Below are positions 11,396 through 36,845 of a DNA stretch of 64,000 bases, in pieces. Source of the DNA: Lolium rigidum (Eukaryota; Streptophyta; Magnoliopsida; Poales; Poaceae). Every line of letters begins with the position of its first letter. Position 1 is the stretch's first letter. The notes beneath the pieces are model-generated. The model saw only the letters and a program-made list of their open reading frames with translations. It was not told the DNA's origin and made no database searches. The stretch spans positions 338,813,090 to 338,877,089 of the forward strand of contig NC_061514.1 of the NCBI RefSeq assembly GCF_022539505.1, read 5' to 3'. Both the position numbers and the translations under genes were made by a program.

Positions 11396-11406
11396 GTATG
11401 TTGTAG
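11396..11406. repeat. Candidate target-site duplication, left of giant MULE
   Basis: GTATGTTGTAG, identical in all 11 bases and in the same orientation at 37802-37812. Mutator-like elements typically make 8-11 bp duplications. The bases further outside do not match, and the inverted ends begin within about 20 bases inside, so this is the expected arrangement. Confidence 0.7.
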
Positions 11407-11720: not shown

Positions 11721-11756
11721 TACAATTTTTTTAATTCCAACAGAGTGCTACGAGAT

Positions 11757-12229: not shown

Positions 12230-13795
12230 GTTTCTGTTTGATTTTCTCTTTTATTCTCTGGAAAGATTTCCGTTTTCTCTTTTATTGTCTGTAAAGATTT
12301 CCGCTTTCTCTTTTATTCTCTTGAAAGATTTCCGTTTTGGCTTTTATTCTCTTGAAAGATTTCCGTTTTCTCTTTTGATTTATCTGGAAAGATTTCCGTT
12401 TCCTCTAGCGCAGGTACATTTTCGAAGGGTTGTGAAGTACATCCTCGTCGTAGAGACAAGTACACCGTCGGAACCAAAAGGAGTACGAGGTAGTTTCTCT
12501 GTTTGTTTCTCTGGAAAGATTTCCGTTTCCTCTAGCGCAGGTACAGGTTCGAAGGGTTGTGAAGTACATCCCCGTCTTAGAGACGAGTATAGGTTATGTA
12601 GGAAGAGGAGCACGGTACTGTATTTATCTTTTGGTTTATCTGGAAAGATTTCCGTTTTCTCTAGCGCAGGTACATGTTCGAAGGGGTGTGAAGTACATCC
12701 TCGTCGTAGAGACGAGTACAGGTTATGTAGGAAGAGGAGCACAGTACTGTGTTTCTCTTTTGATTTATCTGGAAACATTTCCGTTTCCTCTAGCGCAGGT
12801 ACACGTACGAAGGGGTGTGAAGTACATTCCCGGCGTAGAGACGAGTACAGTCTAGGTAGGAAGAGGAGCACGGTACTGTGTTTCTCTTTTGATTTATCTG
12901 GAAAGATTTTCCTTTTTCTCTAGCGCAGGTACATGTTCGAATGGTGGTGAAGTACATCCCCGGCGTAGAGACGAGTACAGCCTAGGTAGGAAGAGGAGCA
13001 CGGTACTGTGTTTCTCTTTTGATTTATCTGGAAAGATTTTCCGTTTTCTCTAGCGCAGGTACATGTTCGAATGGTGGTGAAGTACATCCCCGGCGTAGAG
13101 ACGAGTACAGCCTAGGTAGGAAGAGGAGCACGGTACTGTGTTTCTCTTTTGATTTATCTGGAAAGATTTTCCGTTTTCTCTAGCGCAGGTACATGTTCGA
13201 ATGGTGGTGAAGTACATCCCCGGCGTAGAGACGAGTACAACCTAGGTAGGAAGAGGAGCACGGTACTGTGTTTCTCTTTTGATTTATCTGGAAAGATTTC
13301 CGTTTCCTCTAGCGCAGGTACATGTTCGAAGGGGTGTGAAATACGTCCCCGGCGTAGAGACGAGTACAGGTTATGTAGGAAGAGGAGCACGGTACTGTAT
13401 TTCTCTGTTTGTTTCTCTGGAAATATTTCCGTTTCCTCTAGCGCAGGTACAGGTTCGAAGGGTTGTGAAGTACATCCCCGTCTTAGAGACGAGTACAGGT
13501 TATGTAGGAAGAGGAGCACGGTACTGTATTTCTCTTTTGGTTTATCTGGAAAGATTTCCGTTTCCTCTAGCGTAGGTACAGGTTCGAAGGGGTGTGAAGT
13601 ACATCCTCGACGTAGAGAAGAGTACAGGTTATGTAGGAAGAGGAGCACGGTACTGTATTTCTCTTTTGGTTTATCTGGAAAGATTTCCGTTTCCTCTAGC
13701 GCAGGTACAGGTTCGAAGGGGTGTGAAGTACATCCCCGGCGTAGAGACGAGTACAGGTTATGTAGGAAGAGGAGCACGGTACTGTGTTTCCGGTA
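12230..13795. repeat. Array A1: about 11 copies of a 129-130 bp unit, led by 31-bp sub-repeats
   Basis: Marker CTAGCGCAGG lies at 12405, 12532, 12661, 12790, 12920, 13050, 13180, 13309, 13438, 13567 and (as CTAGCGTAGG or CTAGCGCAGG) 13696, giving periods of 127-130. Each unit carries four GTAC words spaced 23, 23 and 28 bp apart. Before the array, at 12230-12400, a shorter repeat of about 31 bp ending AAAGATTTCCGTTTT is repeated about five times and is also part of the long unit. The period is divisible by three, so false ORFs stay open on both strands. I do not call it coding. Confidence 0.92.
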
Positions 13796-13959
13796 ATAGT
13801 TTTTACCCAATCATTTTGAAGGATGTCTACTAACTGCTCGTTGTTGATTCGTCACAACTCACACCAGATAGACCGAAGAGCAAGTAGGTGCTCGAACTAA
13901 CTAAGCAAATTTAAAGCCACTGCCAAACAAGGTACTCCTACAGTTCTAAACTTCTAATG

Positions 13960-14330
13960 AAGGCTAATTCAAAACGGCGCCGGCGACACGCGCGGAGATC
14001 AAGCGACGAGCGCGGGCGCCGGATCCGGTGGTTCAGCTACGGCTTCGTGGGCTCGGAGACGGCGGCGGCGTCCATCTCGGCCAGCTCCGCCTCCAGCGCG
14101 ACGATCTCGTCCTTGGCGCTCGTCCATCTCGGCCAGCTCCGCTTTCTCCGCCTCCCTCATAGCGCGCGCCTCCTTCGTCATCGTATCCTCGGGGGCGGGC
14201 ACGAGTCCCGGACGGTAGGAGAGCGACCCTCCGGCAGCCGCCACGCCGTTTCCTCCTCCGCCGGCCGCCGGAACCGCCCGAGATTTTCCCGTGGAGACCG
14301 ACATAGTTGCTCGCTGAGTTGTGGCTGTGC
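13960..14330 (-). pseudogene. GC-rich ORF fragment, possible captured host sequence
   Basis: A sharply GC-rich island between AT-richer arrays. On the minus strand a frame opening with MSVSTGKSRAVPAAGGGG (near 14305) runs through LSYRPGLVPAPEDT to a charged helical part, REAEKAELAEMDER. The string CCATCTCGGCCAGCTCCGC is present twice (about 14071 and 14124), giving a repeated AELAEMD peptide. Reading through needs a frame change after the first repeat. I do not recognise the protein. Base composition and location inside a MULE fit gene-fragment capture, as known for Pack-MULEs, but the donor is not identified. Confidence 0.4.
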
Positions 14331-14659
14331 AGCGAGAAGAAGGTGCTGGTGGTGTGTGACTTTTGCTTTGAACATTGGCTTGAGAATTTTCAGCTCCCAC
14401 CGTGTATTTGTAGGCGCTTCCGCTTTCTTTTTCTACCAGAGTGGCCCTCAATCTTTCAGCTTTGGAGCGCATCTTAATGCACGAGAGGAATAAGTACAGC
14501 TTAGGCAGCAAGAGGAATACATGACTGCTTTTTCTGGGATTAATAAGTCTCCTCGAGCGCTCTTTGCAGCTTGGCCTCCTACAAGGCTGTCTTCGGCTCC
14601 TCATTGGCTTTGTCTCTAATCCCCCTTCGGGATCGGATTCTCCCTATGTTTTCTGCATA

Positions 14660-15500
14660 TTTTTTGTTCTCTGGGAATGGACATGAGCCAGCAGGGTCGA
14701 GTACAGCTGTGAAGGGCGCACGAGTACAGATTAGGCAGCAAGAGGAATACACATCTGTTTCACTATATTTGTCTGCATATATCGGGTTCTGCAAGAAGGT
14801 ACAGGTGTAAGGTGTGTCGAGTACAGCGGTTATGGGTGCACGAGTACAGCTTCGTTAGCAAGATAAGTACAGGAGTGTTTCCCTCTGTTCTCTGCACGTT
14901 GTTTGTTCTTTGGGAAAGGGACATGCGCCAGCAGGGTCGAGTACAGCGGTTAAAGGCACACGAGTACATCTTAGGCAGCAAGAGGAATACATGACTGTTT
15001 CTCTATATTTTTTTTGCAAATTGTGGATTCTACATGTAGGTACAGGTGCAAGGTGTGTCGAGTACAACGGTGATGGGTGCACGAGTACAGCTTCGTTAGC
15101 AAGAGGAGTACAGTATTGTTTCCCTATGTTATCTGCATGTTTTTTATTCTCTGGCAAGGGACATGTGCCAGCAAGGTCGATTACAGCGGTGAAGGGCGCA
15201 CGAGTACAGCTTCGATAGGAACTGGGGCACAGGAGTGTTTCCCTATGTTTTCTGCATGTTTTTTGTTTTCTGTGAAGAGACAGGTGCCGGCTGTTTCGAG
15301 TACAGCGGTGAAAGGCGCACAAGTACATCTTATGCAGCAAGAGGAGTACATGACTGTTTCTCTAAAAAAAAATCAAATTGTGGATTCTGTGGGAAGGTAC
15401 ATGTGCATGAAGGTACAGCATCGTTAGCAAGAGGAGTACATTTGGGAATGCTGCACGAGTACAGCTTAAGCAGCAAGAGGAATACATGACTGCTTTTTCT
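14660..15500. repeat. Array A2: diverged units of about 120 bp with GTAC ladder
   Basis: Related to A1 in the same orientation: GGTACAGGTG, then a G-rich stretch, then GCACGAGTACAG, then AGCAAGAGGAGTACA, then TGTTTCCCT. GTAC words fall 22, 23 and 23 bp apart in the best units, and 23 apart again at 15438-15475. Alternate units differ (TTGTCTGCAAATT versus TTTTCTGCATGTT), so the higher-order period is close to 240 bp. No coding sequence. Confidence 0.85.
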
Positions 15501-15753
15501 GGGAATAATAAGTACTGATACAAAAAGTACATGTCCAGCATATTCACAAGTACTAATAGATCACAATGTAGTGAAGTTTACTATCCAACGGTACTAGTAC
15601 TAAATTTACGCAAGCGCATCTGATGTACGTGCACTGTCCACCATTCACCATAGGGAATGTGCTACAAAAGACAGTAGATGAAAGTAATTAATAAATACAT
15701 TAGACAAGTCATTGTCATGTTAACATTCATTGCTGAACATGTGAACATGCTTA

Positions 15754-17593
15754 CTATGACAACATCATCCGTAAAGTGCGGAAGTTGGTTGTAACTCTTG
15801 GATTCCAGATGGCAAATTCACCCTGTTGCGCAGGGTGAATATTAAAGCGTATAGATACTCACCTTTTATGGAGTTTATCTTAGGCTGCAATGAATGGAGA
15901 CGACAGTAGTTACAACTACTGCATATCCTACAAACACTGTATCTTATTAACAAATGTGTATTTCAGTAACACTTACATGATCCTTTTCAATTGGCTCATA
16001 TCCGTCTTTTTCATCCAATAGACGAATCCCATCATATAGGTACGCACCCTTCAGAACGTAAAATGCACATTGGTTTATTCCTTGGTGTGGGCATGTGATA
16101 TATCTTGGCTTTTTTGCACAGGCAACCCAGCTCTTTGGTTGATTACTTTTATTGTATTTGTCTGTACCGTAAACATGCCTGAGTACAAGTTCCATCCTTG
16201 CCATCTGTAGGAATCAGGGAATAAATGATTGTAAAATAATGGTTGACAACAACAAATAGTATTATTTGAAAAGCATGCATCTGGAATTTTTCTCTACTTA
16301 CTATTTTCCCGCATTCCGTGTGGAATCTGCTCTTTGTATAAAGTTGGACATCACCTTTTTTCACAACATAGTTTCTAGAGTCCAATATTTCGAATTTTTG
16401 TGTATATTTGTTCATCACATACAAAATATGGTGAGAACTTTTGAAGTACGTCATCATTATCTTGTTTGGAGATTGGACATGTAAGAACAAGATGGAAATA
16501 GTAGATGGAAATAGTAGATATTGTACTGATGTTGCACCTATAGAGGCAGGGAGCTTACAAGTTTTGCATCGAGAAGGCTCTTTGTTCTGTCAACATAGTT
16601 ATGGAAAACATCCGATGCAATATCCACGTCGAAACCTTCTGTGTAGCTAGATGAATCATTCATTTTTTGAACGGATTCTTCTACTTCCTCTGGTGTCTGG
16701 GACCAAACAGTCACCCCGAGAACATGCTGCATCATACATATCAAACATGGATTATATCAGTAGTTAGTGCACAATATAATCATTGTTATAGTGCAGCATA
16801 CATTATAGACTGCAATGCGTACCATGATAAATCCTTGGCTTAACAAGACTCGTTCTCCAGTAGCGTACAAATCGGACGTATTCCTCACCTCGTCAATGAT
16901 GTAGTCCATCGTAGTACCATCCAGTAACTGATTAACACCAAATTGTGTTTTAATTTCAGCGCCCGTGTAACGGGTATCAAAGTCACGAACAGCACTGTGC
17001 ATAACTGGTGCATTGAATATCTCAATTCTGCATGAAAATCCAGAGGTTAAAAAATAACAAGTTGAAGAGATGAACATTATGCAGTGCAAGATGAAATACT
17101 TACTCATCATATTTCTTTCTTTTCAGTATGATGTCATATAAGGCGTTTGCTTTTTTCTGATGCTTGAACTTCCTTGGTTTATGGTTCGGCAAAGGCTCGC
17201 AAAACCTTTTTGCAGTAGCTCTTGGTCTCTTTGTTGTCGTGACGTTAGACGGAGTAACATTGTCCCTCTTCAGTTTGTCTACATAATTGGACTTTGAAAC
17301 CTTCGGTGGAGTCTCAAGACCTTGTGACCTAGTGAGGCTACAGTGCAAGTCTTTATCAACTTTATAACCAGGCGATGAAGAAGAGGTTCTGTTTATTGGA
17401 GTAAACAAAACTTGGTGCAATCTTGAGGGATCGTCAACTCTTGCTTCTCTAGTCCTCAAGTATTCAGTGTTGTTGTCTTCATAGTTTATGGCAACAACAG
17501 ATTTCGTTGCTTCGATTCTTGTCTTCTTCGCCGCTCTTTGTTGTTTCTTTGTCTTCTTTTCGTCCTCCGATGTTTCTTCCGCTCGCGTCTTTC
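15754..17593 (-). CDS. Ulp1/C48 SUMO-protease-like gene U1 (5' end lost in gap)
   Basis: Cysteine protease of the Ulp1 family, which processes or removes SUMO-like modifiers. Exons on the minus strand that join in phase at GT-AG sites: up to 17593-17104, 17027-16823, 16726-16559, 16460-16302 and 16204-15977, then a short 3' exon. The first exon is basic and low-complexity with a run KTKKQQRAAKKTR. The fourth exon has KSSHHILYV with the catalytic His and FEILDSRNY with the catalytic Asp. The fifth has HQGINQCAFYVLK with the Gln and nucleophile Cys (DCG of the family replaced by QCA). No stop or frameshift occurs in the visible exons. The 5' end is lost in the assembly gap and the last exon (about 15754-15880) is uncertain. 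It lies in the giant MULE, with arrays on both sides. Confidence 0.75.
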
Positions 17594-17693
17594 NNNNNNN
17601 NNNNNNNNNNNNNNNNNNNNNNNNNNNNNNNNNNNNNNNNNNNNNNNNNNNNNNNNNNNNNNNNNNNNNNNNNNNNNNNNNNNNNNNNNNNNN
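17594..17693. other. Assembly gap (100 N)
   Basis: Exactly 100 undetermined bases, the usual placeholder for a gap of unknown size. It removes the 5' end of U1 and possibly the start of the plus-strand acidic gene, so true spacing here is unknown. Confidence 0.98.
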
Positions 17694-17729
17694 CAATTGA
17701 ATCAAGCTTCGACAAGGATCAAGTACGCC

Positions 17730-18272
17730 ATGGATAAAAAGGAGGAGGTTGATAAAGATGAGGAAATCATGAGCACCCATCAAGAACACGAGGAGGTTGA
17801 ACTGATTGTCATAAGTGATGAAGAACATGAATATCATTCAGATAATGTTGTGCAAGGAGGCAATGCCGACGATGAAGACGATGATGATGGTGATGATGGT
17901 GATGATGGTTATGGTGATGAAGCAATGCTACCGAGGAACAGTGAGTCAGAATCTGATGATGATGAAAAATACGAGAGACTTTATTCACATGGAGGATCTA
18001 ATTCCGATGGACGAAGATGAGAGGAACCTCTACTATGCCAGCCTAGAGTCAACTGGACAGCCTAAAATACCCCGAGGCAACTCCTGGTGCAATACAACAG
18101 AGGAAAGATGATGTAGTGTTCACCATTGATATGTTGATGGGAGTTGCACAATCCAAGAAGCAAGCAATCAATGATAAAATCAACAGGGACAAGTGGACGT
18201 GCAAGGAAATGCATGTGTGACACGCCGGGTAAAAGCCGCAAAGAAGTGATTGTAGTTTCCGACGATGAATGA
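17730..18272 (+). pseudogene. Acidic protein fragment with SUMO-interacting-motif-like strings
   Basis: Plus-strand reading from the ATG at 17730 (MDKKEEVDKDEEIMSTHQEH). An early string VELIVISDEE is followed by a long Asp/Glu run and then DEKYERLYSH. The frame shifts near 17990 to MEDLIPMDEDERNLYYASLE, then again to VVFTIDMLMGVAQSKKQAIN, and ends KSRKEVIVVSDDE before a stop at 18270. Hydrophobic four-residue cores followed by acids (LIVISDEE, VIVVSDDE) match the general form of SUMO-interacting motifs. This would fit the neighbouring SUMO-protease-like gene, but it is an inference. At least two frame changes, unless introns are missed. I do not recognise the family. Confidence 0.45.
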
Positions 18273-18429
18273 GGAAGAATACGAAGGATGGAGCTTTATT
18301 TATAATCTGGTAGATTAAGTTATGTGCTTATTATATTTGCCGAATATGTTGGACATATTTATTTGTGTACACCGATTACCTTAAATTATACAGCTATTAT
18401 GTGTGTTTGTGTGTGCAATACAATTTTGC

Positions 18430-19550
18430 TCTCTCATCTATAGCCGACAAGAAAACCAACGAAATTATCTAGCACTCCTATTCATGATACAGATGTACTT
18501 GTATCTACTGCAAAAATGTACTCGATACACTTAGCACCAGTACCTACCCCGCAGAATCGAAATTAATAACGAAAACCACCACATATAATCTGGTACTCCT
18601 ACTCGTGCCGCAGACGTACTCGTCTCAGTAGAACCACCGTACTCCATACCATAAAGCACCTGTACTCTACGATATACAACAGAAAACCCGACAAGAAAAC
18701 CAACAGAAATTATCTAGCACTCCTATTCATGATACACATGCACTCGTCTCTGCTGCAAAAATGTACTCGATACACTTAGCACCAGCACCTACCCCGCAGA
18801 ATGGGAAATAATAACGAAAACCACCACATATAATCTGGTACTCCTACTCGTGCTACATCTGTACTCTTCTCAGTAGAACCACTGTACTCTATACCATAAA
18901 GCACCTGTACCTACGATATACAACAGAAAACCTGACAAGAAAACCAACAGAAATTATCTAACACTCCTATTCATGATACACATGCACTCGTCTCTGCTGC
19001 AAAAATGAACTCAACACTGTTAGCACCAGTACCTACCCCGCAGAATCGAAAGTATTAACGAAAACCACCACAGATAATCTGATACTCCTACTCGTGTCGC
19101 AGATGTACTCGTCTCACTAGAACCACTGTACTCTATACAATAAAGCACCTGTACCTACGTTATACAACAGAAATCCTGACAAGAAAACCAACAGAAATTA
19201 TCTGGCACTCCTATTCTTGATACACATGCACTCGTCTCTGATGCAAAAATGTACTCGACACTCCTAGCACCAGTACCTACTCCGCAGAATCGAAAGAAAC
19301 AACGAAAACCACCACATAAAATCTGGTACTCCTACTCGTGATGCAGACGTACTCGTCTCAGTAGAACAACAGTACTCCATACCATAAACCACCTGTACCT
19401 ATGATGTACAATAGAAAACCTGAAAAGAAACCAACAGAAATTATATAGCACTCCTATTCATGATACACATGCACTCGTCTCTGCTGCAAAAAAGAACTCG
19501 ACAATCTTAGCACCAGTACCTACCCCGCAGAGAAACGGAAATATAAAGAT
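18430..19550. repeat. Array A3: about 4.5 copies of a 244-bp dimeric unit, inverted relative to A1
   Basis: The marker GCACTCCTATTC recurs at about 18472, 18717, 18961, 19205 and 19448, a period near 244. Each unit is two diverged halves of about 122 bp. Read on the other strand it aligns with A1: GTACTCGTCTC, GTACTC and CTGTACCTACG of A3 correspond to the complements of GAGACGAGTAC, GAAGTAC and GCAGGTACAG of A1. GTAC or GCAC words fall 23, 23 and 23 bp apart in both halves. Non-coding. Confidence 0.9.
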
Positions 19551-19893
19551 AAAACAACACGGATGATCGAAAATATGAGCAAAAAACAACAGACTGAGTC
19601 CCCATAATAGTACGTATGTAATTGTGTAAATTCCACAGATACTAGCTAAACTGAACTATAAACCATAGATAAATACGAGGTGAGTACAACAATAAACAAA
19701 AGATAATTAAAGTCCAGTACCACGTACATGGTACATTACGTTGTACTCAACAACAGAAAGTCTTACAAGATAACCATACCGAACACGACACAATAAAGTC
19801 TTACAAGACAACCATAACCAACACGGCACAATAAAGTCTTACAAAACAACCATATCCAACACGGCACGATTTAACAATTTGCCACACACAACT

Positions 19894-20563
19894 TCAGAAG
19901 TTGGATTTGGATGCAAAAGCATCTAACACCTCTGCATAATCGGTAGGTTGAGCTTCAACATAGTAAACTTGACTGACATGGAAGGGACCAAAAACGTCAT
20001 AATTGAATATGTGGCCAGTAACTTTTTGCAGGTCACTAGGATCTTGGAACTTGACAAGAACACTTCCATGATGGTAGTTCTCCATGGCAAGGAACTTTGT
20101 GTGACCAAGAAACTTGCTCAAAGCATGAGCAACAACGAATGTGCTGGTAAAAACCTGGTTATACTAAACGTAGCTATTCCAATTGTATCGACAGGACCAA
20201 CATCAATTCCAAGCATATCCATTGTAATCCTTGGAAGTTCCGTACTTGGGCGAAAACTCTAGAAAATTGAATTACAAACAAGAGGGATCAAAGTTATTAA
20301 GTGCGTATATTCCTGTGCAAGATGACTGAAAAAATAAGAACTAAACAAATACCTTGGCAATATCTTCGAACTTACGGATTTTTGAAGCATCTCGCGACAT
20401 CAATCGCATCTTCAACCTTAGGCTTTTTTGAAGCCTCTCCGAGATCAACCGCATCCTCAACCAAGGACCTTTTTGAAGCTTCACCGAATCCATCACAAAC
20501 CGTGCTTTGTGTGTTCCAGCCTTCTACAACACCACAAGAAAGAATAATGAAAACAAAGAACAA
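19894..20563 (-). pseudogene. Hypothetical MULE-borne gene H1
   Basis: Unrecognised minus-strand gene. The last exon reads ALSKFLGHTKFLAMENYH, then GSVLVKFQDPSDLQKVTGH and FGPFHVSQVYYVEAQPTDY, to a stop at 19894. Just upstream, one frame away, lies LPRITMDMLGIDVGPVDTIG (about 20170-20240), so a frameshift separates them. A further upstream piece (about 20372-20520) contains a doubled motif VEDAVDLGEASK / VEDAIDVARCF. Putative introns are AT-rich. It sits between arrays A3 and A4. The protein-like texture and lack of simple repeats suggest a real former gene, but no function can be assigned. Confidence 0.4.
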
Positions 20564-20599
20564 ATATCATTTGGACCCATACAATCAACCGAACAAAAT

Positions 20600-21480
20600 A
20601 ATGTAAACCGCAGCTTTAGAAATAAGAAATAGATACAGATCTGGAAGAAATAGACGGAAAGGAGGTAGTTAGAAAGCGAGAGAAATAGAGGATGTCCGAG
20701 AAAAAGTCTAAGAGGAATAAAGAGGAAACAAAATAAGAACTACACCCGGAACAGAAACAATATATCTATAGGATTAGAGAATGAATTTACGAGGGAAATT
20801 AACAAACAAACAAATGAACATATTACGGAAACCCTAACCTGGAAGGGAAGATGGTGAGCAAAGAGCGGAGCGGAGACGGGAAGGGTGAGCGGAGCGAAGA
20901 CGGAAACCCTAACCAGGAAGGAACAGAATATAAAACCGGCGGAGTCGGAGCACAAACCACCAGATGCTTCTAGTACGACGACCGAACGGCGCCATTTTAC
21001 ATACCATAGAGTGGCTTCAAGTCACTAACACGCGGAACCCACTTTATGTTGGCCCACTCATCAGTGAGTAAAAGTAAAAGAAAAGTCGGGAATGCGAAAG
21101 GAAAGAATCTCACTCGCAGGACTATCCCACGCTCCACGGCACCAGCCACCAGTGCAAATTTAATGAGAAGTAAGTAGATTATTGACTAATCGTTTCCAGC
21201 TTCCCCATGCAACATGCGCATTACTCGCTCATTATTTTATTAATAAATTCAATCACCGCCACAAGCATCAAAGTGGTACCAAAGAACTGTGAATGTTCCC
21301 CGTCATACAAAAACAAGGCGTAAGTACAACGACAGAAGAGTCCCAAGTACGCCACATTTCAAGGCGTAAGTACAACGACAAAAGGCATAAGCACAGCACC
21401 TTTCAAGAATAAAGTACATTTCTATCGCGGAACAAGTACACAAAACAAGTCTTGAAAAACTATTAGCCAATAGTACTCAA
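20600..21480. other. Spacer upstream of H1 with scattered GTAC words
   Basis: No convincing gene. It may hold the promoter of H1 (minus strand) near 20.85-21.1 kb. From 21307 to 21440 several GTAC words appear, two consecutive intervals being exactly 23 bp, which makes this a decayed edge of array A4. Confidence 0.4.
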
Positions 21481-22760
21481 TACTTTCCCATGTAAAATAT
21501 CAGTCGAGTACAGAGGTGAAAGGCGCACGAGTACAGCTTAGGCAGCAAGAGGAATAAATGACTGTTTCACTAATTTTGTCTGCAAATTTTGGGTTCTGCA
21601 AGAAGATACAGGTGCAAGGTGTGTCGAGTACAGCAGTGATGGGTGCACGAGTACAGCTTAGGCAGCAAGAGGAATACATGACTGTTTCTCTATATTTTTT
21701 GCAAATTGTGGATTCTACATGTAGGTACAGGTGTAAGGTGTATCAAGTACAGCACTGGTGCGTGCACGAGTACAGCTTCGCTAGGAAGAGGGGTACAGTA
21801 TTGTTTCCCTATGTTTTCTGCATGTTTTTTGTTACTAGCGAATGGACATGTGCCAGCAGGGTCGATTACAGCGGTGAAGGGCGCACGAGTACAGGTTAGC
21901 CAGCAAGAGGAACACATGACTGTTTTTCCATATTTGTCTGCAAATTTTGGGTTATTCAAGAAAGTACAGGTGTAAGGTGTGTCGAGTACAGAGGTGAAGG
22001 GTTCACAAGTACAACTTCGTTAGCAAGAGGAGCACAGGAGTGTTTCCCTATGTTCTCCGCATGTTTTATGGTTCTTTGGAAAGGGACATGCGCCAGCAGG
22101 GTCGAGTACAGCGGTTAAAGGCGCACGAGTACATCTTAGGCAGCAAAAGCAAGACGTAACTCGTTTCTCTATATTTGTCCGCAAATTTTGTGTTCTCGCA
22201 AGAAGGTACAGTGTAAGGTGTATCGAGTACAAGCAGTTGATTGGTGCACGAGTACAACTTCGTTAGGAAGAGGGGTACAATATTGTTTCCCTATGTTTTC
22301 TGCATGTTTTTTGTTACTTGCGAATGGACATGTGCCAGTAAGGTCGATTACAGCGGTGAAGGGCGCACGAGTACAGGTTAGCCAGCAACAGGAACACATG
22401 ACTGTTTTTCTATATTTGTCTGCAAATTTTGGGTTATTCAAGAAAGTACAGGTGTAAGGTGTGTCGAGTACAGAGGTGAAGGGTGACAAAGTACAGCTTC
22501 GTTAGCAAGAGGAGCACAGGAGTGTTTCCCTATGTTCTCCGCATGTTTTATGGTTCTCTGGGAATGAACATGTGCCAGCAGGGTGGAGTACATCGGTGAA
22601 AGGTGCACGAGTACGCTTTAGGCAAGCAAGAGCAAAACATGACTGTTTCTTTATATTTGTCTGCAAATTCTAGGTTCTGATGGAAGGTACAGGTGTGTAA
22701 GGTGTGTACAGTACATCGGTGATGGGTGCATGAAGGTACAGGCGTAAGTACTACAACACA
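21480..22760. repeat. Array A4: about 10 diverged units related to A2
   Basis: Same orientation and vocabulary as A2: GTCGAGTACAG, GGTGCACGAGTACAG, TTCGTTAGCAAGAGGAG, ACAGGTGTAAGGTGTGTCGAG. Alternating half-units (TTGTCTGCAAATTTTGGG and TTTTCTGCATG) give a dimeric period near 240 bp. GTAC words are mostly 22-23 bp apart. It decays at both edges. Weak phased GTAC pairs continue to about 23000. Confidence 0.85.
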
Positions 22761-23288
22761 AAAGTTCTAGGTACATAATATACAAGAGTACAAATACAGC
22801 TAAAATATAAGCTAGAATATAAACTGCAAACACAAGTATTAACTACAGCAACAAACAAACAACAAAGTACAATTCGAATACGGGAAAATAACATCTACAT
22901 AACTTGAGGGAAACATAGCAATGAATAGTTAGTGTCTCACAGTCACAATAAAGAGGTAAGTACATCAGGAAGCAAATATCAAGTACGTAAGACATAAGAG
23001 TACAACTACAGAAAAATATATGCCAGAAAAAGGAAACCACAGATGTTCAACACAAGGTGACAGTACAAAACAGGAGATTCTTGGGTTCACTTACAAATAG
23101 TAAAAGCACAAACTAAAATATAAATAGAACCATAACGGAGAATCAATGATACTGTCGGAATACAAACACAGAAACATGTTTCTTTCCGAAATGGTTTGTA
23201 TCTCCTTATCGAGCAACATTCACCGTCTTGCATGCTTTCTCATTATATCAATGACTCGCATGCATTTTCTTTGCATTACCTTGGAAAG

Positions 23289-26200: not shown

Positions 26201-28210
26201 GCAATTAATGGGAATGAGCTGTTGAAGCAACCTAATCTGTTTATAAACATTCCGACTAATCGGCATGATTTGCTCACGCCACATGTCATCGCACATCTCA
26301 AGCATTAGTAGCAATACCCTTATTCCCGTTCTCGCTTTCGGCAAGCCGTATGTTTGGTCATTCAATACGGAGACTTCTTGATTTGATTCAGTTCTAACGG
26401 CGGATGGGCTATCACCCGTTCCATTCGAGCGGTATATATGATCAAAATCATTGAGTATACCTGCATAATTCGCCATATTACCGAACCACGGCCTTGAACA
26501 AGAACCACCCTGTTTATCTTCGGATGCGCAAAATCTTCGTTCATTATAGTGGCTCGCAAGCCGCAAAACATTGGCAATCTTAATGTTGATGATTGGCTGA
26601 ATTGCGAAAATATTTCAAAGTACAAGCCCCGCTGAATTTCTTTCGAGTCATCGATAGCCTGTTGCAAAATCAAAAACAAAACAAAACAAAAAATTAGTAA
26701 TTGCAGACAATTACTTCAAAATATAAAACATTACACTACAGATGTCAATTAAAACAGAACATCACAATAAACGTACGAACGGACGCATCACAGGCTTCAC
26801 AAAGGAGCAAAGAAACGTCTCGAGACCGGGATGCAGATCTCCAATACGTAAAGTGGAAGACCCACTCGATGAAACGGAGTACGTCTCACATCCTTCAGCC
26901 TAATTATAACACACACAAAGAAAAATAAAAAACACAGCTTCGGGACAACACATAAACATAAAATTTTAAAACATGTATTGCTCATCATCGATAATAAAAT
27001 ACACTAACCGGTATTTCGCCATAGGTTCCATCCTCCGCTGAAACCAAGTCAAGTTTTTCAAATTCACTAACCGTGAATCGAATCCCATACGCTAATTCTT
27101 GGAACAACACTAGCAAGCTCTTTGACTTTTATATCAAGATATTCTAAGTAAGTCATCTACAAAGAACAACAAAGCAAAAAAAAATCAGGCACTCAGATAG
27201 AATTAATCAATAACATGACAACAAGAAACTGTTGAGAAACTAAAGAAGTTACTAACCGCGAGGAACTACCAAGCAACCACAGAGGGCACCCTGTAGACCA
27301 CAATCAACGAACGTTTTCATGGAAACTGAAAGTTTCTGAAACACTGCTGTAGACCAGTCATACGTGCGGATTTCCTCAGAAGGACCCTCAAGTGCTAAAA
27401 GGTAGTCAGGACTGACACACTCATACGTCGTTGGACATAGAAATGCAGTAATACAGAACATCATCCAATATATCTTGAAATCTTCCTCTTCCAAGTCAGA
27501 AGACAGCATATTCATTAGCTCATTTATAGTTGGGGTACTGCCTTCACAGCATGAACGATTCCTAACAACATCCCCGAATTGCTCACCGCACTTGATAGGG
27601 ATGCGCCGTCCTCCAATTGGTGTGCCTAATACCTTATGGACACACAAGTGCATTGAAAGCAAAGTCAAAGCCATTCTTGAACACAAACATCCTTTTTGAA
27701 GCAACATAGTTGCTGACAATCCAAGCAACAAAAGCCCTTGGTATCTCTTCAAGACGAATATCAAGGAGAGATTCTTGACCTATATCAGCAACATAACCCC
27801 TTTGTTTGGGGCTAAGGGACTTGCAAACAGAAATGAACTTTGGAAGGCTAAGTTTTGTACTAAATTCTGATGAACCATTAGGCATAGATCCAGAACCGGA
27901 AAACAGTAAAACAATAACACATAAACACATGATCATGACATGAAAATAAACCACAAGCATGAACAAACATATTTAGGAATAACAAACAATCTAAACTAAC
28001 CAAGATTTTCTCAATCAGTGCAGCTCAATTTTTTCAAGATTAGCGCATACTTTCTTCTCCATCCCGATCCTATCCCGCTCAAGCTGGTCACGCACCATGA
28101 ATTCCCGAGTCACCATCTCAGTACCATCAACGGAAAAAGACTCGCGTATCGTATAATCGAGGGGTGACCTCATCTTCACCATCACGAGGTACAGCAGCTT
28201 CGTCATCCAT
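23289..28210 (-). pseudogene. Ulp1/C48-like gene U2 with DUF1985-type N-terminus, nucleophile Cys replaced by Ser
   Basis: Large multi-exon minus-strand gene. The N-terminal part (about 27950-27252) reads FISVCKSLSPKQRGYV, LEEIPRAFVAWIVSNY and HKVLGTPIGGRRIP, the layout of plant transposon ULP-like proteins with a DUF1985-type domain. A middle region (26.6-24.6 kb) is long, polar and low-complexity. The protease part has PRIVETRGRWATHRNFG (about 24400), then VRDNHFWIVVVANF (about 23810) with the His, then the exon NDSGPQAMKVILQHC (about 23480), where the family has DCG. The nucleophile codon at 23472-23474 is therefore Ser. The last exon ends QWRSIC with a stop at 23289. A one-base frame break near 27650 splits the DUF1985-like block, so the gene is probably a pseudogene. 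Exon limits in the middle are uncertain. Confidence 0.6.
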
Positions 28211-28309
28211 TGAACAACGCAGGCTACGAGAAAACAACGAGAACTCACAAAACCAGCCGAAAAATCCACGGGGCTCTTTATTGAGAACCCGCCGCCTACA
28301 TTCAACAAT

Positions 28310-28720
28310 CGAAGAAAGAAATCAAACGATAAATAGGGTTAGGAAGCATTCCAGCACGAGAGGTTTCGAAAAACAGATCTGAGATGGGGGCGCAAACGTA
28401 CGAAGAGGCCAAGAGGGAGGAAGAAGATGGCTCACGGGATCAATGAATGACGGCAAAAATTACGGGAACGCCACAGAAGAAAAATTGGGAAAGAGAAATA
28501 GAACCAATCATCCCATCCACAGTCCCACATGTCATCCACGCAAAAGGAATCATCAGAAAAACGAGGACCCACATGTCATACTAAAACATCAACTCCCATT
28601 TTAATGACATGTGCTGGCCCACAAATACAGGTGAAGAAATATATTGGAGATAGATATCTTAACAAATCCTCCACTTCTGGTGGACAACAGGATCACGCTT
28701 TCCATCCCTTTCTCTCTCAT
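28310..28720. promoter_or_regulatory. Divergent spacer between U2 and plus-strand genes
   Basis: Some 400 bases between the 5' side of U2 (minus) and the first plus-strand candidate exons. No ORF worth keeping. The repeated CCCACATGTCAT words near 28527-28585 and 28605 are of mild interest. By position it could be a bidirectional promoter; no TATA box is clear. Confidence 0.3.
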
Positions 28721-29231
28721 CAACAGATTCAAAATTCAAATCAAGATCCAGACGAGAGGAACGACGGAGCCACCAAGGAAGACGAAGGAAGACGAACCAC
28801 CACGAACTCAAGGTAAACATCTAAATTCCAGATTCGAAGATTTGAAACGTTGTATACCGTACCCCGATTTTTCTCGTTCGACATCTGGAACCCCATCCAC
28901 GACTAACATGTATTTCGGTCAATCGCAATTTTCCATCTAACTTTTTTTCCAACGATTCAAAATTCGAACATGCAGACAACATCAACGCAAAGGAACAAAC
29001 AAGGGATGAGAGAATTAGGCAACGTGCACAAGTACATCCGATAGGAATATCCACATAGGTAAAATTCACCAGGTTTCTTTTTCATTGGTTCTGAATCTAA
29101 AGAGTCACAGACTAACCACTCAAACAAGTGGCACTAAATAAGTTCAAACACCGGGTACTCATCAAAAGTAATCGTAAATTCAAACTTGCACATTTGCTTC
29201 TGAATACTTTTCAAAAGTAGCAGTCTAACTT

Positions 29232-29546
29232 CTCAACCTTCCACGCTTGCTCTTCATACTCATGGACTTCAACACTTCATACTCGTGCAGAGCTGGAGAA
29301 GAAAAAAGAGAGACATCAGAGAAGATGGATGAAACATGGGCACAACAGAACAAGGATGAAGAACAACCAATATTGTGGTTGAACAAGCTGCCTCCTGGAG
29401 TCAAGATACCACTAACCGCAGTAACGTATGGCAAAAGTTGCAAAAATGGTAAAACTTACCGAAATCTACTCTACTTACAAGCACCTCCTCGTTATGATAT
29501 AGTGCTAAACTTTGTGGTGTCGGGAAGTACTAAATCACCATACTAA
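29232..29546 (+). pseudogene. Hypothetical plus-strand ORF in MULE
   Basis: Open frame of about 99 codons from 29247, with an acidic start (RETSEKMDETWAQQNKDEEQ) and then ILWLNKLPPGVKIPLTAVTY. It is protein-like but unrecognised. It could be an exon of the gene that leads to the transposase, because AG/GT sites and further short exons follow downstream. Low confidence. Confidence 0.3.
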
Positions 29547-29971
29547 CAAATACTAGTAACACTGCATGGAGAAAACAGACTAACGAGTGTAGCAAGTACA
29601 GAACTACCAGTCTCGTGCCTATAATGATCAGGAAAAACTAACTATTCATATCAAGAAGTACTAGTAACATTTGCAAGGAAAAACAATTTCCATGCTGTCA
29701 AACAAAAGCAACAGTATTAGGATGCCTATGTTGTTCAAAGAGTACTAACCCATAGTATTAAGAAGCATTAGAAACAGTTCCTGTGCAATAACAGATCTTC
29801 CTCATGTCGACAGTGTACACAAGTACTAGTACTATGCCTATAATATAACTTTATTGTGGTTTATTTTGTAATGTTATCATATATCTTTATTTAAAATGTA
29901 CACAACATAAACTATATTTCTTTTGTTTTTGACATGCATGTACAAAATAATTTATATTCAATTTTTTTCAG

Positions 29972-31400
29972 GCAAGAATACACACGTGGAGGAATAAAAG
30001 GGAGAAAATGCAACAAAATAAACTTAAACAAGCTGAGTCACAGTACAGAGTGCAGTGTGCTCACCTTAAACGATCTCTAATAGAAGTAAAGAAGGAAGAA
30101 GCTTCCAAACAACAGCTCGACAATGGAATTGGATAGAGAGACGAAGGAAAAAATTGCTAACCTCTCGAGAAAATCAATCAAGTATGCGCCCTCCTACGCT
30201 TGTTCAAGAGAGCATCCTTCCCTGCTTGCAAGCAACATCAAATCAAATCAATCGCAAAAGTTCACAACGAAGGTTGGTAAAATTAATTACTAGACATGGC
30301 ACCAAAAATTCACTACTAGATTTTATTGAATCAATTTAACAAATATACTTAAAATTGATTATTTTCTGAGATGGTAATATTATTGACTCGTCAATCTTCT
30401 TACAGGATGCCAATGGCACCAATTTGAGACAAAAGCATCACGAAGAAACAGGAAAGCATAATTATGTGTCAAGAACAAGTAGCCGTAGCAGCTCAACTGC
30501 ACCAACGGAAAAATACATGCAAAGAAAATCATCAAGTTATGAGGTAAGTAACAAATCTTACACAAGCAAAGTACAAAATCAAAAACATTTTTAGGATAAA
30601 TACTAACAATTATTTATCCATTTCTCAGGGTTTATTCAAAGAAATCGAGGACTATGATATGTCTGACGATCAAGCTAGTAGACAAGCACGACACCTCCCA
30701 ACAACAATCTCAACAAAACAAAGAAGACATCAAGAAGGCATGTAGATTACAGTTAATCAACAATTCTCGCAATGACCAGAAAAGTATCTGTGATTCAAAA
30801 ATTGCCTGACAAAAATAATTTATATCCAATTTACAGGAGGTCTACAAGCAACCGGACAAGAATGAAACAACATACAAGACCAAGCAAAGCAGCTATGGTA
30901 TACCGCATAAACAGAATGACAGGAAAACACACAAGCAACCAATACCAGAAAAAATTATCAAGGTACAATTCAAGAATTTATACAAGATAAATGATGATTA
31001 TGCATTATGGAGAAACATCAGTAAACCAGGAATCTAACACAAAGTTTACTTGGTTTACTTATTTGCAGGAAATGAAGTTTGCCACAGCCAACACCAACTC
31101 CAGTGATAGCACAACAAGCAATACAAAGGTAGTAACTACATGTATGTATTTATAATTACAAATTACATTTAAAATAATGCATTAAATTTTTTTTGTATAC
31201 CTTTAATTTACAGGAAACATATGAAGCATACACATGTACAGAAACATCGGGAAACAAAATCATCGATCAGCAGGTACGTACTTTTGATTTCAAAAACAGT
31301 ACACACTTTGTTATATGTGGAAATAAACATTAAAATATCTAAACATCTCGGAACACCATCTTACAAAAACTCGATGCACAATATGAATGTTATGAATTCA
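29972..31400 (+). other. Series of short candidate exons upstream of the transposase
   Basis: Between T-rich stretches ending in CAG and GTAAGT-like sites lie short open pieces rich in Lys, Gln, Ser and Thr. One near 29973-30140 is helical (KREKMQQNKLKQAESQ); others lie near 30405-30545, 30630-30740, 30836-30960, 31070-31130 and 31215-31275. They may form an N-terminal extension of the transposase gene or a separate gene. 29550-29970 has no feature apart from scattered GTAC words. Splicing cannot be confirmed by eye. Confidence 0.35.
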
Positions 31401-33848
31401 GGAATACAGAGAAATGGGAAGTACGGACGAAGAAACAAGTGCCTCAAAGGAAACAAATCAAAAAGAAGCTTATTCATCATCGCAGAAACACAGCACAGGA
31501 GAATCAAACTCGCCCTCGGAGGAACAAGCTACCAAACAAGAAACAAAAGAAGAACTGAAGGATGATGATCCAGAAATAAATCCACATCCTCCAACACAGA
31601 TGACCACCCAGCAGTTGAAGAGATTATCAGTGCAGCTATACCAAAGGAAGGTGCCCGTTTCAAAACAAGAGACGATGCATTCTATAGATACGTTCTGTAT
31701 GCAAGAAAGGAAGGATTTGCAGTGAAGAAGTTCAGCAGCAAGAGATCAGGAAAAAACGGAGAAATTTACATGCAAATGTTTGCATGTAACAAGGAAGGAT
31801 GCACAAACACAGATGCCGAACCATCGTCGCACAGAGAACAAACATACTATCGAAGACCGGCCGTAAAGCACAGTATAATTGTAAGAGAATTTGATGGATA
31901 CTCGGTACATCAAGAAGGTTCACTTAGAACACAACCACCCGCTGGAACCAACAGACTATCTCATTAGTTTGCACACTCGTCACAAAAGGATGACCGATCT
32001 CGACAGAGATTAATTCATCTACTACGGATGGGACGTTCGCCACCAAGGAAGATGATGTTAATCTTCCTGGTCGATCGCAGGGAAATTCCGTGGAATACCC
32101 TTCGATGCCGTTGATCTAAGCAACATAAAGAGTCAACAACAACAAATAGAGAAGGACCATGACATCCGTAAGTGCTCGGAACGCTTCAAGACACTCCAGA
32201 AAACAAGACTCGGCTTCTATCATGCCATGGAAATAGACAGCGAAAAAGAGTTCGGAGCCTGTTTTGGATGGACGCAATGTGCGTAATGAACTACAAGCTG
32301 TTCGGTGACTACATATCTTTCGACACAACTTTCAAGCACAAATAAGTATGGCTTACCATTTGTTCCTATAGTTGGGGTGAACAATCATGGCTCCACAAGA
32401 TCTGTTTGCCGTTGCTCGCTAAAGGATCAAACAACGGATACATTTATATGGGTACTCGGAAACATTTGTTCAGGCCATGGGTGGAAAAGAACCAAAGACA
32501 ATAACAACAGACCAGGACAAGGCAATGAAGAAAGCAATAAAAACAGTTCTAAAGTCCACAACACACAGGAACTGCTACTACCACATCGTGACCAAGATGA
32601 GCCAGAAAGAGAGCACCTTCTTTGCAAAAAACACAGGACTGTCGGAAATGCTAATGTACATTGCAAAGAACGCATTCACACCAGCTGAGTTCGAAATGGG
32701 ATGGAATAAAGTGATAGAGGATTACAATGCTAGCGGAGAAGAACACCTAAGCAAGTTATTCAGGATAAGACACAGGTGGGTACCAGCATACTTCATGGAT
32801 AAATTTTACCCATTCTCATCAAGCACAGGAAGGAGCGAGAGCACAAATAACATGTGGAAATGCTATAGCCAGCACACAGACACGATAACAATGTTCCTTG
32901 AACAATATGAGGTCATACAAGACAAGTGTTTATCTCGCTCCTGGACAAGAAGAAGCTCACATCAACACCGAAAACAGCAAAATTAGTAACAAGACATCCG
33001 TTTGAGAAGCAAGCTCTTGAACAATTCACAAATGACATATTCGAGAAGTTCCAGCATTGAGATCACAAACAACACGGCATTCAAGGTAGATGGATCACTT
33101 GAACTCTGGTCGCCACTCGCGGCTGAAAAGAATAGTGAAATGCTACAACCACATGGAATTCAAAAGGGAGTTGTTTGACGTCACATTTGACGATGAAAAA
33201 AAAACTTCATGTGTTCCCGCAAAAAGATGCAGAGGGATGGTATACATTGCTGCCATGTAATAAAAGCAATGGTTCACATGGAGATCAATGATTTGCCGAG
33301 AGAGTTTTGTGATTAAAAGATGGAGAAAAGACATAGACATGGAACTCGCAACATTAGGAAATGTCGCAGATGCTTCTTGCGGAGACGAAACACTAAAGTT
33401 TGCCGTGTGATGAGCCATATGGCAGAACTTTGCAACAAAGCGTGCCCAAATGACAAAGCATACAATGTCATGATTCAGGTGTATGCGTGATATGGAAACA
33501 AAAGTGCTGGCAGCAATAAGAGAAGATGAAGGAGCTAAAAAACTTCACGATGAAGAAACAGTATCAACGAAACATTGCGTGACCCACCAATGTCCGACGA
33601 AGAGGAACAAAAAGAGGGGACAGAATGATGCCAGGTTCGAAAAAAGACAGAAAACTAGACAAATAAAATGCGGATACCGCAAGAAATCAGGTCACAACAA
33701 AACAGGATGTGGAGAATCGAAAGCAAAAATTGCAGCAGAGGCAGCACAGGCAGCAGCACAAGCAAGCAGCAGCAGAAGCAGCAGCATCACAGGAAAGATA
33801 TACAAGCAATACAACACAGAATCAATCAAGCAACAGACACACAAATAA
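31401..33848 (+). pseudogene. FAR1/MURA-type transposase pseudogene
   Basis: Transposase of the Mutator superfamily, FAR1/FHY3-like class, needed for cutting and joining the element ends. Domains in order: an acidic Ser-rich lead; FAR1 DNA-binding domain (31600-31960, ARFKTRDDAFYRYVLYARKE, with EHNHPLEP in another frame); DDE catalytic core with GDYISFDTTF (first Asp, about 32310), GVNNHG, then EPKTITTDQDKAMKKAI (second Asp, about 32505) and EFEMGWNKVIEDYN (candidate Glu, about 32690); a SWIM-like zinc site RDGIHCCHVIKAM followed by IKRWRKDIDMEL (33180-33350); and a C-terminal knuckle CGYRKKSGHNKTGC lacking its second Cys. At least six frame breaks separate these parts, so it should be inactive. 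It is the only transposase seen in the giant MULE. Confidence 0.85.
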
Positions 33849-34219
33849 CGATAATAACACAACAGAGAGAACAACACAACCAGGAAACACTTACGGTATG
33901 TACTACCACAACGGAAGAATAAGATGCAACATGGAATATCTAGTATTTGGTACAAAAAACACATTAACAAGGTAAGTGTGCCCATGAAGTTTCTTTGTCA
34001 GTGATGAAAACCTACTGATGCAAATAATCTGCTTTTTCCTACAAATTAACATAAATTTAAAATATATTTATTTGCAGAGGTCGACGATGAACAAAGGATA
34101 TCAAAAGGAGAGCAACAAAAGTAGGAATCACTCAAGGAGGAAGCCACAGGAATTTTTAAAATATATGATACAGACAATGGAATGAATATGTAATGTTGTT
34201 ATCTACTTATTTAGTACAA

Positions 34220-36274
34220 TCAAGTTAACTCCATTGACTTCACTGGAGAAATAAGATTAACAATTACAAACCAGTACTTACTTTTGAATTCTTCGATCTT
34301 TTCACGTACGAAACTTGCCAAATATTCAGGAGAATCATAAGTGAGCATCATTCCGGTGAAGAACTGTCGAAAACTTTCGATGTCAGCCTGAAAAACACGA
34401 AACAACACAATGGTTAATCATCTTAAACGAAAAAATGCACAAAAATTCAGAATGCACAAGCCCAGAATGAAAAAGTTCACAACTACCAAACAAAAAGATG
34501 TACAAGTACTAAAAAGTACAATTGACATGTACTATTATACAGTGAACAAGTACTAAAAACCTGACTTAAATACTATTGAATAAAAGTATGTACACAACAC
34601 ATTACCTACCTTGAATACATTTGGGTAAAAATTAGCCTTGAATATCCAAATAAACCTCATTGCATAGATACCACAGTCACGCCTCGCGCTTGTCCTAATG
34701 GTCAAAAAGAAAGAAAAAACTAAATCCAAACACAGTAAACAAAATAAAATCATAGATCACATTAAGAAAAGATGATTACTCTGAACAAGAAGGGGTGCCG
34801 CAAACTTTTATCTTGAACGATGAGATATTTAATCCCTCGACACCATGAAGATGACTGTAAAGTTTCTTGAATGATTTACACTAAAAGAATAAAAAATAAA
34901 AGTTATTGTTGTCATGTGTAAATAACTATTTAATTAGCTAGATTACAACGAAAACCATACAATTCTTTCAGTAGAAGCCATCTGGGATTCTGTCAACTTC
35001 AGTGAGCTAGACACTCTAAATTTCCTGAAATGGAAGTCGACAAAGATAACCCACCAATGGCTGTAATCGCAACAAGTAATGTAGACCTATTTGAAAATAA
35101 ACAATCCCACGAGAAATAAGAAAGCATCCACGATACTTGTAGTAGAAAAAATATAATCGCCAAACAAAACATGAAAAACATGCCTCTTCCCTATCCAAAC
35201 TATAGTACTTCAGATCATGTTCAGCAAAACTTGCAGCTAGATGAATAGGGTCCGCCTCATCCACATCAAGAATATGCTGGAAAAAACAACAAGAAGATGT
35301 TTAAAAAACTAAATGCTAAAAACATTTAGTTAAAAAATAAATAAATCTAAAACATATACACATGACGTACCGCCAAAGAGCTTGGAATAAATAAGAAATC
35401 AAGACCATCATCAACGCACTTAAGAAAAACATCCATAACAGAAGGATCCATGAACCCACCACCCTTCATAGCAAGGTAGAAACTATGCCAGCTGACAGAC
35501 TTACCACCAACTTCAAGTATTTTCTCGGCACTGCAATTGTTAAAAACAACAAGAATAAACATCCGTATATACAAAAATAGATGAAAAATAGATGGAAAAT
35601 TGAATTCCAACGGTTACCCTTCAATGTAATTCATAGGAGCCTCAAGTACATCAGCAAACAACATTCTATGCAAAGCAGTTACAGGGACTTCCTCTTCCCC
35701 AGATAGCTCCTTAAGCTCAAGACAATCATCAGAATCGCCGTCTGCATAGGAATCATACTCCTGAGCCACAGAACTACCTCCAACAACATTTTCAGTTTTA
35801 GGCTCCTTTCCCTTGCGTGTACATGGCCCCGAACCCTCAAGACAACAATCATCAATACAATAATCAGAATCGGTGTCTGCATTGCCATCATCCTTCTGTC
35901 CCACAGAACTACCTCCAACAACATTTCCAGTTTCAGGCTCCTTTCTCTTGCAAGCACATGGCTGCTTCTTCAACTCAATTGACAAAAGAGAAACCATATC
36001 ACGCATCTGATCAACAAGAACATGTCCCGTTCTTATCATCGACGAAGTGAAGAAAGTCTTCCACATTTCTTTCAGCTTAGAACGTAACTGCAAATAAAAA
36101 ACACAATTAAGAATGCAATTTACAATAACACAATAATTAAATATCAAAAGACATAATAAAAAACCTTACATCATTATGAATTTCACCAGGAAACATATCT
36201 GAGATGTGACGATCGACTGCTTCACGAAGATGGTCAGGAATATCCGCACGAGAGTGAAAACCTGGATCTGCCAT
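34220..36274 (-). CDS. Ulp1/C48-like gene U3, intact nine-exon model of 422 residues
   Basis: Ulp1-family protein. Exons, minus strand: 36274-36170, 36087-35618, 35530-35371, 35276-35184, 35086-34961, 34880-34780, 34694-34610, 34387-34282 and 34242-34220. All joins keep phase; one donor is GC (35184/35183), the rest GT-AG. Start MADPGFHSRADIP, stop TGA at 34220. Residues 36-190 form an acidic linker with an internal duplication of about 38 residues around NVVGGSSVGQ / NVVGGSSVAQ. The protease core has YSHWWVIFVDF (His at 286) and RRDCGIYAMRF (Cys at 359). The usual catalytic Asp (ILDS in relatives) aligns with FRVSSS, so it may be lost. The 422-residue open model inside an element with a wrecked transposase suggests constraint or recent arrival. 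It lies at the right end, reading away from the terminus. Confidence 0.8.
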
Positions 36275-36499
36275 CTTCTCCAACCTGAACAAGCAATGGA
36301 GAACACTAAAATTAGTTCAGCTACAATGTGTGCAGCTTATCACTTTCGAAACTACACATCTAAAACGATACGCGCCTTTGGCGCAAATACATCGACAACC
36401 AAACAAACCAAAAGAAAACAACATAATTTACACGCATGCACTGGCGAAGACGTGTAACAGAGCATAACCTTTTCTGCCGCTAAACTCTACAACAAATAG

Positions 36500-36845
36500 G
36501 TGCACAAGTATAAGAGATATACGTGCACAAGTACAAGAGATATAGGTGCACAAGTACAAGAGATATACGTGCACACGTACAAGAGATATACGTGCACAAG
36601 TACAAGAGATATACGTGCACAAGTACAAGAGATATAGGTGCACAAGTACAAGAGATATACGTGCACAAGTACAAGAGATATAGGTGCACAAGTACAAGAG
36701 ATATACGTGCACAAGTACAAGAGATATACGTGCACAAGTACGATAGACTAAGCTACGCAAGTACAGAACAAATTGTCACACGAGTACCAAGGACAAACAC
36801 GAACAAGTACAAGACACAAAGGACAGCAAGTACCAGCATGGAAAC
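36500..36845. repeat. Array A5: 23-bp minisatellite with decayed 23-bp ladder
   Basis: From 36500 to about 36745 a 23-bp unit, GTGCACAAGTACAAGAGATATAC or its C/G variant at the last base, repeats about 10.6 times almost perfectly. It then decays: from 36738 to about 36834 the intervening bases are unrelated, yet GTAC still recurs at 23, 23, 23 and 23 bp. It lies upstream of U3 near the right end. The ORFs it produces in every frame are artefacts. Confidence 0.93.

Follow-up and report, generated by a model that had tools for sequence, protein, structure and literature searches.

A directional GTAC word at a 23-bp step in a Mutator-like element of Lolium rigidum: candidate target sites of an element-encoded VANC-like protein

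A stretch of 64,000 nucleotides from the grass Lolium rigidum (NC_061514.1, positions 338,813,090 to 338,877,089; hereafter the window) contains a 26.4-kb Mutator-like element (MULE), in which the tetranucleotide GTAC recurs at distances of 23 bp, both in five tandem arrays (A1 to A5, Table 1) and at dispersed sites. This raises the question of what could hold so short a word at so regular a step. An earlier sequence-only reading of this DNA had proposed a constraint on the phase of a short palindrome, as expected for a multimeric DNA-binding protein, and had pointed to plant SBP-domain factors, which bind a GTAC core. In the analysis reported here the constraint on word and spacing was upheld, the word proved to be directional, and its likeliest reader appears to be the VANC-like product of a gene of the element itself, which we call gene Y.

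The element contains 225 GTAC words (8.5 per kb), of which 70 pairs lie 23 bp apart, 38 pairs 46 bp, 18 pairs 69 bp and 11 pairs 92 bp apart, in agreement with the peaks at 23 and 46 that had been anticipated. The rest of the window has 86 GTAC (22 to the left of the element and 64 to the right), which form no pair at 23 bp. When all 256 tetranucleotides were ranked at distances of 10–129 bp within the element, with the expectation floored at 0.5, GTAC at 23 bp gave the highest ratio of observed to expected pairs (70 against 1.9). The intervals previously counted by eye in A1, A2, A5, the A5 tail, the word triple before A4 and the two isolated pairs are all present, and some of the positions then assigned to them were about 10–20 bases off. 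For A3, a run of 23/23/23 had been claimed in both halves; one half has it, and the other reads 22/23/23 with two words in the form GTGC.

It had further been predicted that the peak would survive once array units were collapsed, and here the outcome depends on the cut-off. Merging of spacers by single linkage at 60% identity left 13 spacer groups at 23 bp, against a mean of 1.9 and a maximum of 5 at distances off multiples of 23, and at 70% identity 20 groups were left, against a maximum of 6; at 50%, linkage chained 68 of the 70 pairs into 3 groups and the excess was lost. The words outside the five arrays provide a separate view: these 99 GTAC form 9 pairs at 23 bp with about 1 expected, and in a jitter test 9 or more pairs were seen at 23 bp in none of 5000 sets, and at any distance between 10 and 129 bp in a proportion of 0.0002. 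With the A5 tail removed along with the arrays, 94 GTAC yielded 6 pairs at 23 bp (P 0.0006 at this distance and 0.014 at any distance). When the arrays and other short tandem repeats were masked (98 GTAC), GTAC and AGTA at 23 bp ranked first and second of 30,720 word-distance combinations, and AAGT at 23 bp was seventh by Poisson tail in the full ranking of these combinations. A coding constraint can be rejected as the source of the step, because neither the step of 23 nor the unit length of 244 is divisible by 3.

Four of the arrays are related by descent. A1, A2, A4 and, in inverted form, A3 are diverged copies of one cassette, in which words spaced by 22–23, 23 and 23 bp are followed by a T-rich linker of about 47–57 bp to give a unit of about 119–130 bp. 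This eliminates a separate origin of every array as far as A1–A4 are concerned, and it qualifies the earlier statement that the bases other than GTAC are unrelated, which holds for successive spacers within a unit and fails between these arrays, with their shared ancestral unit of about 120–129 bp. Comparison between cassette families gives an identity of 83% for the word columns and of 54% for the spacers (158 pairs from 20 chosen cassettes, comprising 3 of the 11 A1 units, 8 of the 16 A2/A4 half-units and 9 from A3, and found partly with GTAC-containing patterns, which biases the comparison towards the words), in line with the expectation that the spacers would be the less conserved part. 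Within the 16 A2/A4 half-units agreement is 0.938 in the GTAC columns against 0.808 (P 0.017), and within the 11 A1 units 0.966 against 0.907, the latter a comparison without a P value. Variant words occur, some GTAC now being GCAC, GTGC or ATAC; the 28-bp interval of A1 arises because the fourth word is GCAC in 10 of the 11 units, with a GTAC 5 bp further on. The four steps of the A5 tail match the A5 unit at 9, 9, 13 and 8 of 19 positions, and only the value of 13 clearly exceeds those of shuffled sequences. Adjoining A1 there is a further tandem repeat, of 123 bp (11759-12193; 3.5 copies at 97%), with a single GTAC, and therefore not all arrays of the element bear the word.

As a control, five GTAC at a 23-bp step were sought in a microbial genome collection, which returned at least 118 stretches; one viral locus was added to those listed. 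Among the matches listed (n=119), the median spacer identity was 0.83, with 117 above 0.5 and 2 below it, against 0.40–0.47 in the four-word cassettes of the window. Such runs recur, among the matches listed, as minisatellites of mostly similar units in assemblies of Bacteroidales, Treponema and Streptomyces. Viral contigs held 17 stretches with three phased AGTACA, one of which has five phased GTAC, and a search of viral contigs with one A2/A4 stretch gave no match. Taken with the pair counts and the cassette comparison, the control supports a constraint on the spacing and the short word, with spacers free to change.

Grouped by sequence context, the 105 phased sites form 31 groups, and an alignment of these carries information only in the eight positions of CAAGTACA, every other position having at most 0.25 bit. 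In this consensus the GTAC is preceded by C in 18 of the 31 groups, A in 19 (G in 9) and A in 26, and is followed by A in 20; the columns immediately before and after GTAC (positions -1 and +4) are inflated, having been used to set the orientation of the sites. AGTACA and its reverse complement TGTACT are found 20 and 0 times in A1, 17 and 0 in A2, 20 and 0 in A4, 8 and 0 in A5, and 18 and 0 in five dispersed blocks, that is 83 to 0 over nine blocks picked by the analyst; A3 has 0 and 9, opposite to the others. Elsewhere in the element the two forms show no preference (7 and 6, these 13 lying mostly in coding-like stretches), giving 90 and 15 in the element as a whole. The site is a directional word of about 8 bp with the core RGTACA, facing one way within each array or block. 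The palindromic part of the earlier proposal is rejected because the words of any one array or block share a single direction; its other part, a constraint on word and spacing, stands.

The words are concentrated in non-coding DNA, AGTACA reaching 14.7 per kb in arrays and 2.4 in the remaining non-coding DNA, against 0.68 in coding-like stretches, as delimited by eye from open frames, and 0.27 outside the element. Among non-array hexamers, AAGTAC (24 against 5.0 expected) and AGTACA (22 against 5.0) ranked first and second under an order-1 Markov model; under an order-2 model CGCGCG was first and AAGTAC sixth. CpG retention, considered as a sign of low methylation, was uninformative, with values of 0.80 in arrays, 0.73 in other non-coding parts, 0.75 in coding-like stretches and 0.89 and 0.87 in the two flanks.

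The element itself is well delimited. MULEs have target-site duplications of 8–11 bp (PMC6446971), and the present element combines a MULE transposase domain with a 10-bp duplication, TATGTTGTAG, within this range. VANDAL elements are described as lacking terminal inverted repeats (PMC13317346, PMC6446971), and the inverted ends of 30 bp (87%), together with the 69-bp subterminal inverted repeat (99%), rule out membership in that group. The subterminal repeat is thus more alike between its two copies than are the outermost ends, as if it had been homogenised recently.

Gene Y lies on the minus strand and extends downward from about 28.1 kb; near 27648 its reading frame is interrupted, either in this copy or through an assembly error. 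Its relatives in the protein collection number 35, one being from Festuca glaucescens (86% identical to the query P0001) and one from Puccinellia chinampoensis, both Poeae grasses, and the other 33 being probably plant DNA in metagenomes. Relatives were found neither in viral contigs nor in plasmids. The predicted fold of the family matches VANC21, with positions 289-557 of the latter aligned, so that the element would, by this model, encode a protein of the VANC fold. At the sequence level DUF1985 was matched by one of 30 family members, with an E-value of 0.017 that is below the curated cutoff; a sequence profile of the family searched against the PDB did not recover VANC21, and a Pfam scan of the gene Y pieces gave no match, Ulp1 (Peptidase_C48) included. 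The gene Y model also matches an entry of a viral structure library, BFVD A0A890CAY5 (805 amino acids, E 4.5e-5), possibly plant DNA labelled as viral.

Given these observations, a DNA-binding protein seems the most sensible reader of the words, and we consider, with a probability of roughly 60%, that they serve in cis as targets for the product of gene Y, a VANC-like protein with an anti-silencing role. The gene Y protein would recognise the directional 8-mer through its RGTACA core, and neighbouring molecules, all in one orientation and separated by the fixed step, would bind co-operatively. With the non-coding DNA densely occupied, silent marks might then be stripped, the regulatory DNA of the element kept clear of them and its genes expressed, an effect modelled on that described for VANC proteins. 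Selection would retain word, direction and step and leave the intervening letters free, and arrays could grow or be replaced by tandem duplication, the duplicated segment being a four-word cassette in A1–A4 and one 23-bp unit in A5. A fixed step combined with one direction points to head-to-tail contacts of adjacent proteins. As 23 bp of B-DNA make about 2.2 turns, successive proteins would be offset by about 70 degrees and so would not share one face of the helix, which would favour a geometry set by protein-protein contacts, or an altered twist, over simple placement on the same face.

Of the rival readers, the strongest is an SBP-box factor of the host, probably a copper-response regulator of the SPL7 type, whose sites would have been recruited as enhancer arrays. 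SBP proteins require the GTAC core (PMC9516184, PMC3520712), and this rival owes its strength to SPL7, for which, of several variants tested, AGTACA/TGTACT showed the highest in-vitro affinity (PMC9516184); AGTACA is an enriched hexamer of the element. The general SBP consensus is NNGTACR, in which the N is often C (PMC9516184/PMC3520712), and it fits less well, such a C not being the main form here. CGTAC/GTACG occurs 37 times in the 26.4-kb element and 30 times in the 37.6 kb outside, about 1.8-fold per kb, as compared with 181 and 47 for AGTAC/GTACT, about 5.5-fold; none of the 31 context groups has C before GTAC, although 5 have G after it, equivalent to CGTAC read from the opposite strand. 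A host activator alone would also leave unexplained the 23-bp step, the block-wide direction and the VANC-fold gene. The SBP link drawn by the sequence-only reading agrees with the words as to the GTAC core, and the preference of SPL7 for AGTACA agrees with them as well; we nonetheless regard a host factor as an unlikely reader, the VANC-like gene Y product being the likeliest. Another product of the element, Ulp1-like or otherwise from the minus strand, might read the words and gene Y have a different role; further minus-strand open stretches do exist, one with a weak C48 match, yet the fold linked to motif binding was found only in the gene Y family, the product modelled here, and this is the least probable of the alternatives.

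The words might instead be subterminal sites of the FAR1-type transposase of the element, comparable to the subterminal repeats of other cut-and-paste transposons. The encoded FAR1 DNA-binding domain and the location of A1/A2 and A5 near the two ends fit such a role, and it is disfavoured by the outermost DNA, which is almost devoid of words: the first 350 bp contain a single GTAC, 11408-11758 has no AGTACA, and the last ~880 bp (36918-37802) are without GTAC. The words are moreover dense in A3 and A4, some 7–11 kb from the nearer end, and A1/A2 and A5 face the same way rather than being mirror images. Another word, ACGTGTCGCGCGCGGA, is shared by both ends in the same direction (11478-11493 and 37740-37755, with a near copy at 37686-37701), and is itself a candidate site for this FAR1-type transposase, separate from the GTAC words. 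We hold the transposase to be an improbable reader. Less probable again is an account without any protein, by which 23-bp and 120-bp tandem repeats have decayed and GTAC was left by chance or mutation bias. All five arrays are indeed tandem repeats whose copying contributes part of the peak, the peak vanishes at the 50% collapse cut-off, and one unit of the A5 tail still resembles the A5 unit (the 13 of 19 noted above). Neutral decay would not, however, be expected to leave words better conserved than spacers, a phase that continues outside the arrays, a uniform direction in blocks, a scarcity of AGTACA in coding-like stretches, or spacers as dissimilar as those of the cassettes when set against the control loci.

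The preferred reading, in which gene Y encodes the reader, has its closest parallel in VANC21 and VANDAL21 (Hiun) of Arabidopsis (PMC5735166). Both cases involve a MULE with a protein of the VANC21 fold, here predicted, and dense short directional motifs in non-coding tandem repeats with few in coding parts. The motif there is YAGTATTAY as opposed to CAAGTACA, and the available text of that paper gives no step for the VANC21 motifs comparable to the strict 23 bp seen here; the present element further differs from VANDAL21 in its grass host, terminal inverted repeats, FAR1-domain transposase, size of 26 kb and a DUF1985 likeness by fold only. The VANC6 motifs of VANDAL6, AGTTGTCC and AGTTGTAC, are likewise short and tandemly repeated, one variant containing GTAC (PMC5735166); the VANC6 motif is rare in our window (none forward and 4 reverse within the element, 1 forward and 2 reverse outside it). 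KIU and the Ulp1-carrying VANC genes of MULEs without terminal inverted repeats (PMC13317346) share with it the combination of a MULE and a VANC-type gene, possibly with Ulp1-like sequence; in contrast to them our element has such repeats, and its Ulp1 likeness was seen by eye or below cutoff. Ulp1-carrying MULEs are mentioned for rice (PMC13317346). Copper-response sites of SPL7 have the AGTACA core in common with the words, and the portion of PMC9516184 at hand mentions neither a 23-bp phase nor transposon arrays.

How a transposon protein recognises its own copies through very short words has been called enigmatic (PMC5735166). In the accessible parts of the literature searched, which did not include a 2022 study by Sasaki, no monocot VANC-type system and no 23-bp-phased GTAC array was described. 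We raise the possibility, at somewhat less than even odds, that VANC-type anti-silencing extends beyond eudicots to grass MULEs that have terminal inverted repeats and encode a FAR1-domain transposase, a chain of same-facing proteins reading an 8-mer every 23 bp, with spacing as part of the target code. The Sasaki study (EMBO J) is said to have traced VANC systems to eudicots and to have reported a role for the sequence, density and helical periodicity of the motifs; in that case phasing as such has been treated before, and the novelty would lie only in the strictness of the 23-bp step and in the grass host. Were the extension true, the system would either predate the monocot-eudicot split or have spread between MULE lineages, and a VANC-like reader in grasses would provide a means of lifting silencing at specific target sequences. 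If an SPL7-type host factor were the reader, the result would be a transposon with dozens of same-facing copper-regulator sites, which is still unexpected. In either case the many natural spacers around one word at one step form a panel of sites with which the step is directly testable.

Table 1. Features of the element, in positions of the window
Feature	Position	Strand	Evidence or remarks
Whole Mutator-like element, 26.4 kb	11407-37802		Target-site duplication and inverted ends equidistant from both edges
10-bp target-site duplication TATGTTGTAG	left 11397-11406, right 37803-37812
Left terminal inverted repeat, 30 bp	11415-11444	+	87% to 37765-37794
Right terminal inverted repeat	37765-37794	-
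Subterminal inverted repeat, 69 bp	11652-11720	+	99% to 37272-37340
Array A1	12403-13800	+	11 units of ~129 bp, the final unit truncated; words 23/23/28 (first unit 23/23/23)
Array A2	14480-15480	+	~120-bp half-units; words 22/23/23
Isolated word pair at 23 bp (15527/15550)	15527-15553	+
Array A3	18440-19535	-	Inverted copy of the A1/A2/A4 ancestral unit; words on minus strand
Word triple at 23/23 (21324/21347/21370), preceding A4	21324-21373	+
Array A4	21500-22745	+	~120-bp half-units, near-relative of A2
Isolated word pair at 23 bp (22960/22983), after A4	22960-22986	+
Candidate 3' portion of gene Y; resemblance to Ulp1 by eye only	23376-24792	-	Three metagenome relatives of 23593-23886
Gene Y N-terminal part, predicted VANC fold (DUF1985-like), several exon-like stretches	26513-28143	-	tblastn with P0001 and with P0007, a deposited model from Festuca; fold match of family to VANC21
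Dispersed AGTACA words, 5 forward and 0 reverse	28339-31568		Stretch between gene Y and transposase
FAR1 DNA-binding domain of transposase	31569-31967	+	Pfam PF03101, E 4.9e-9, above cutoff
MULE transposase domain	32338-32986	+	Pfam PF10551, E 1.3e-9, above cutoff; in this copy the domain is divided between two frames
Candidate third gene	34223-36165	-	Weak Pfam Peptidase_C48 match, E 0.017, below cutoff
Array A5	36496-36741	+	10.7 copies of a 23-bp unit, one word per unit
A5 tail	36738-36833	+	Four more exact 23-bp steps (36738-36830), spacers mostly diverged

Beyond these features, the minus-strand loci at 15950-17840, 23376-24792 and 34223-36165 look by eye like remnants of Ulp1-type proteases, the weak C48 match being confined to the last, and a run of 100 N at 17594-17693 marks an assembly gap inside the second minus-strand gene candidate. 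A segment at 14000-14300 has 67–74% GC and long open frames within an element of about 40% GC, and is possibly a captured fragment of a host gene. Just to the right of the element lies a class III peroxidase-type gene on the minus strand (40215-41054; Pfam peroxidase, E 3.1e-61). A near-identical 36-bp tandem repeat flanks the element on both sides (3108-3178 and 50342-50415), with similar long open frames nearby, and these two regions are perhaps copies of one retroelement.

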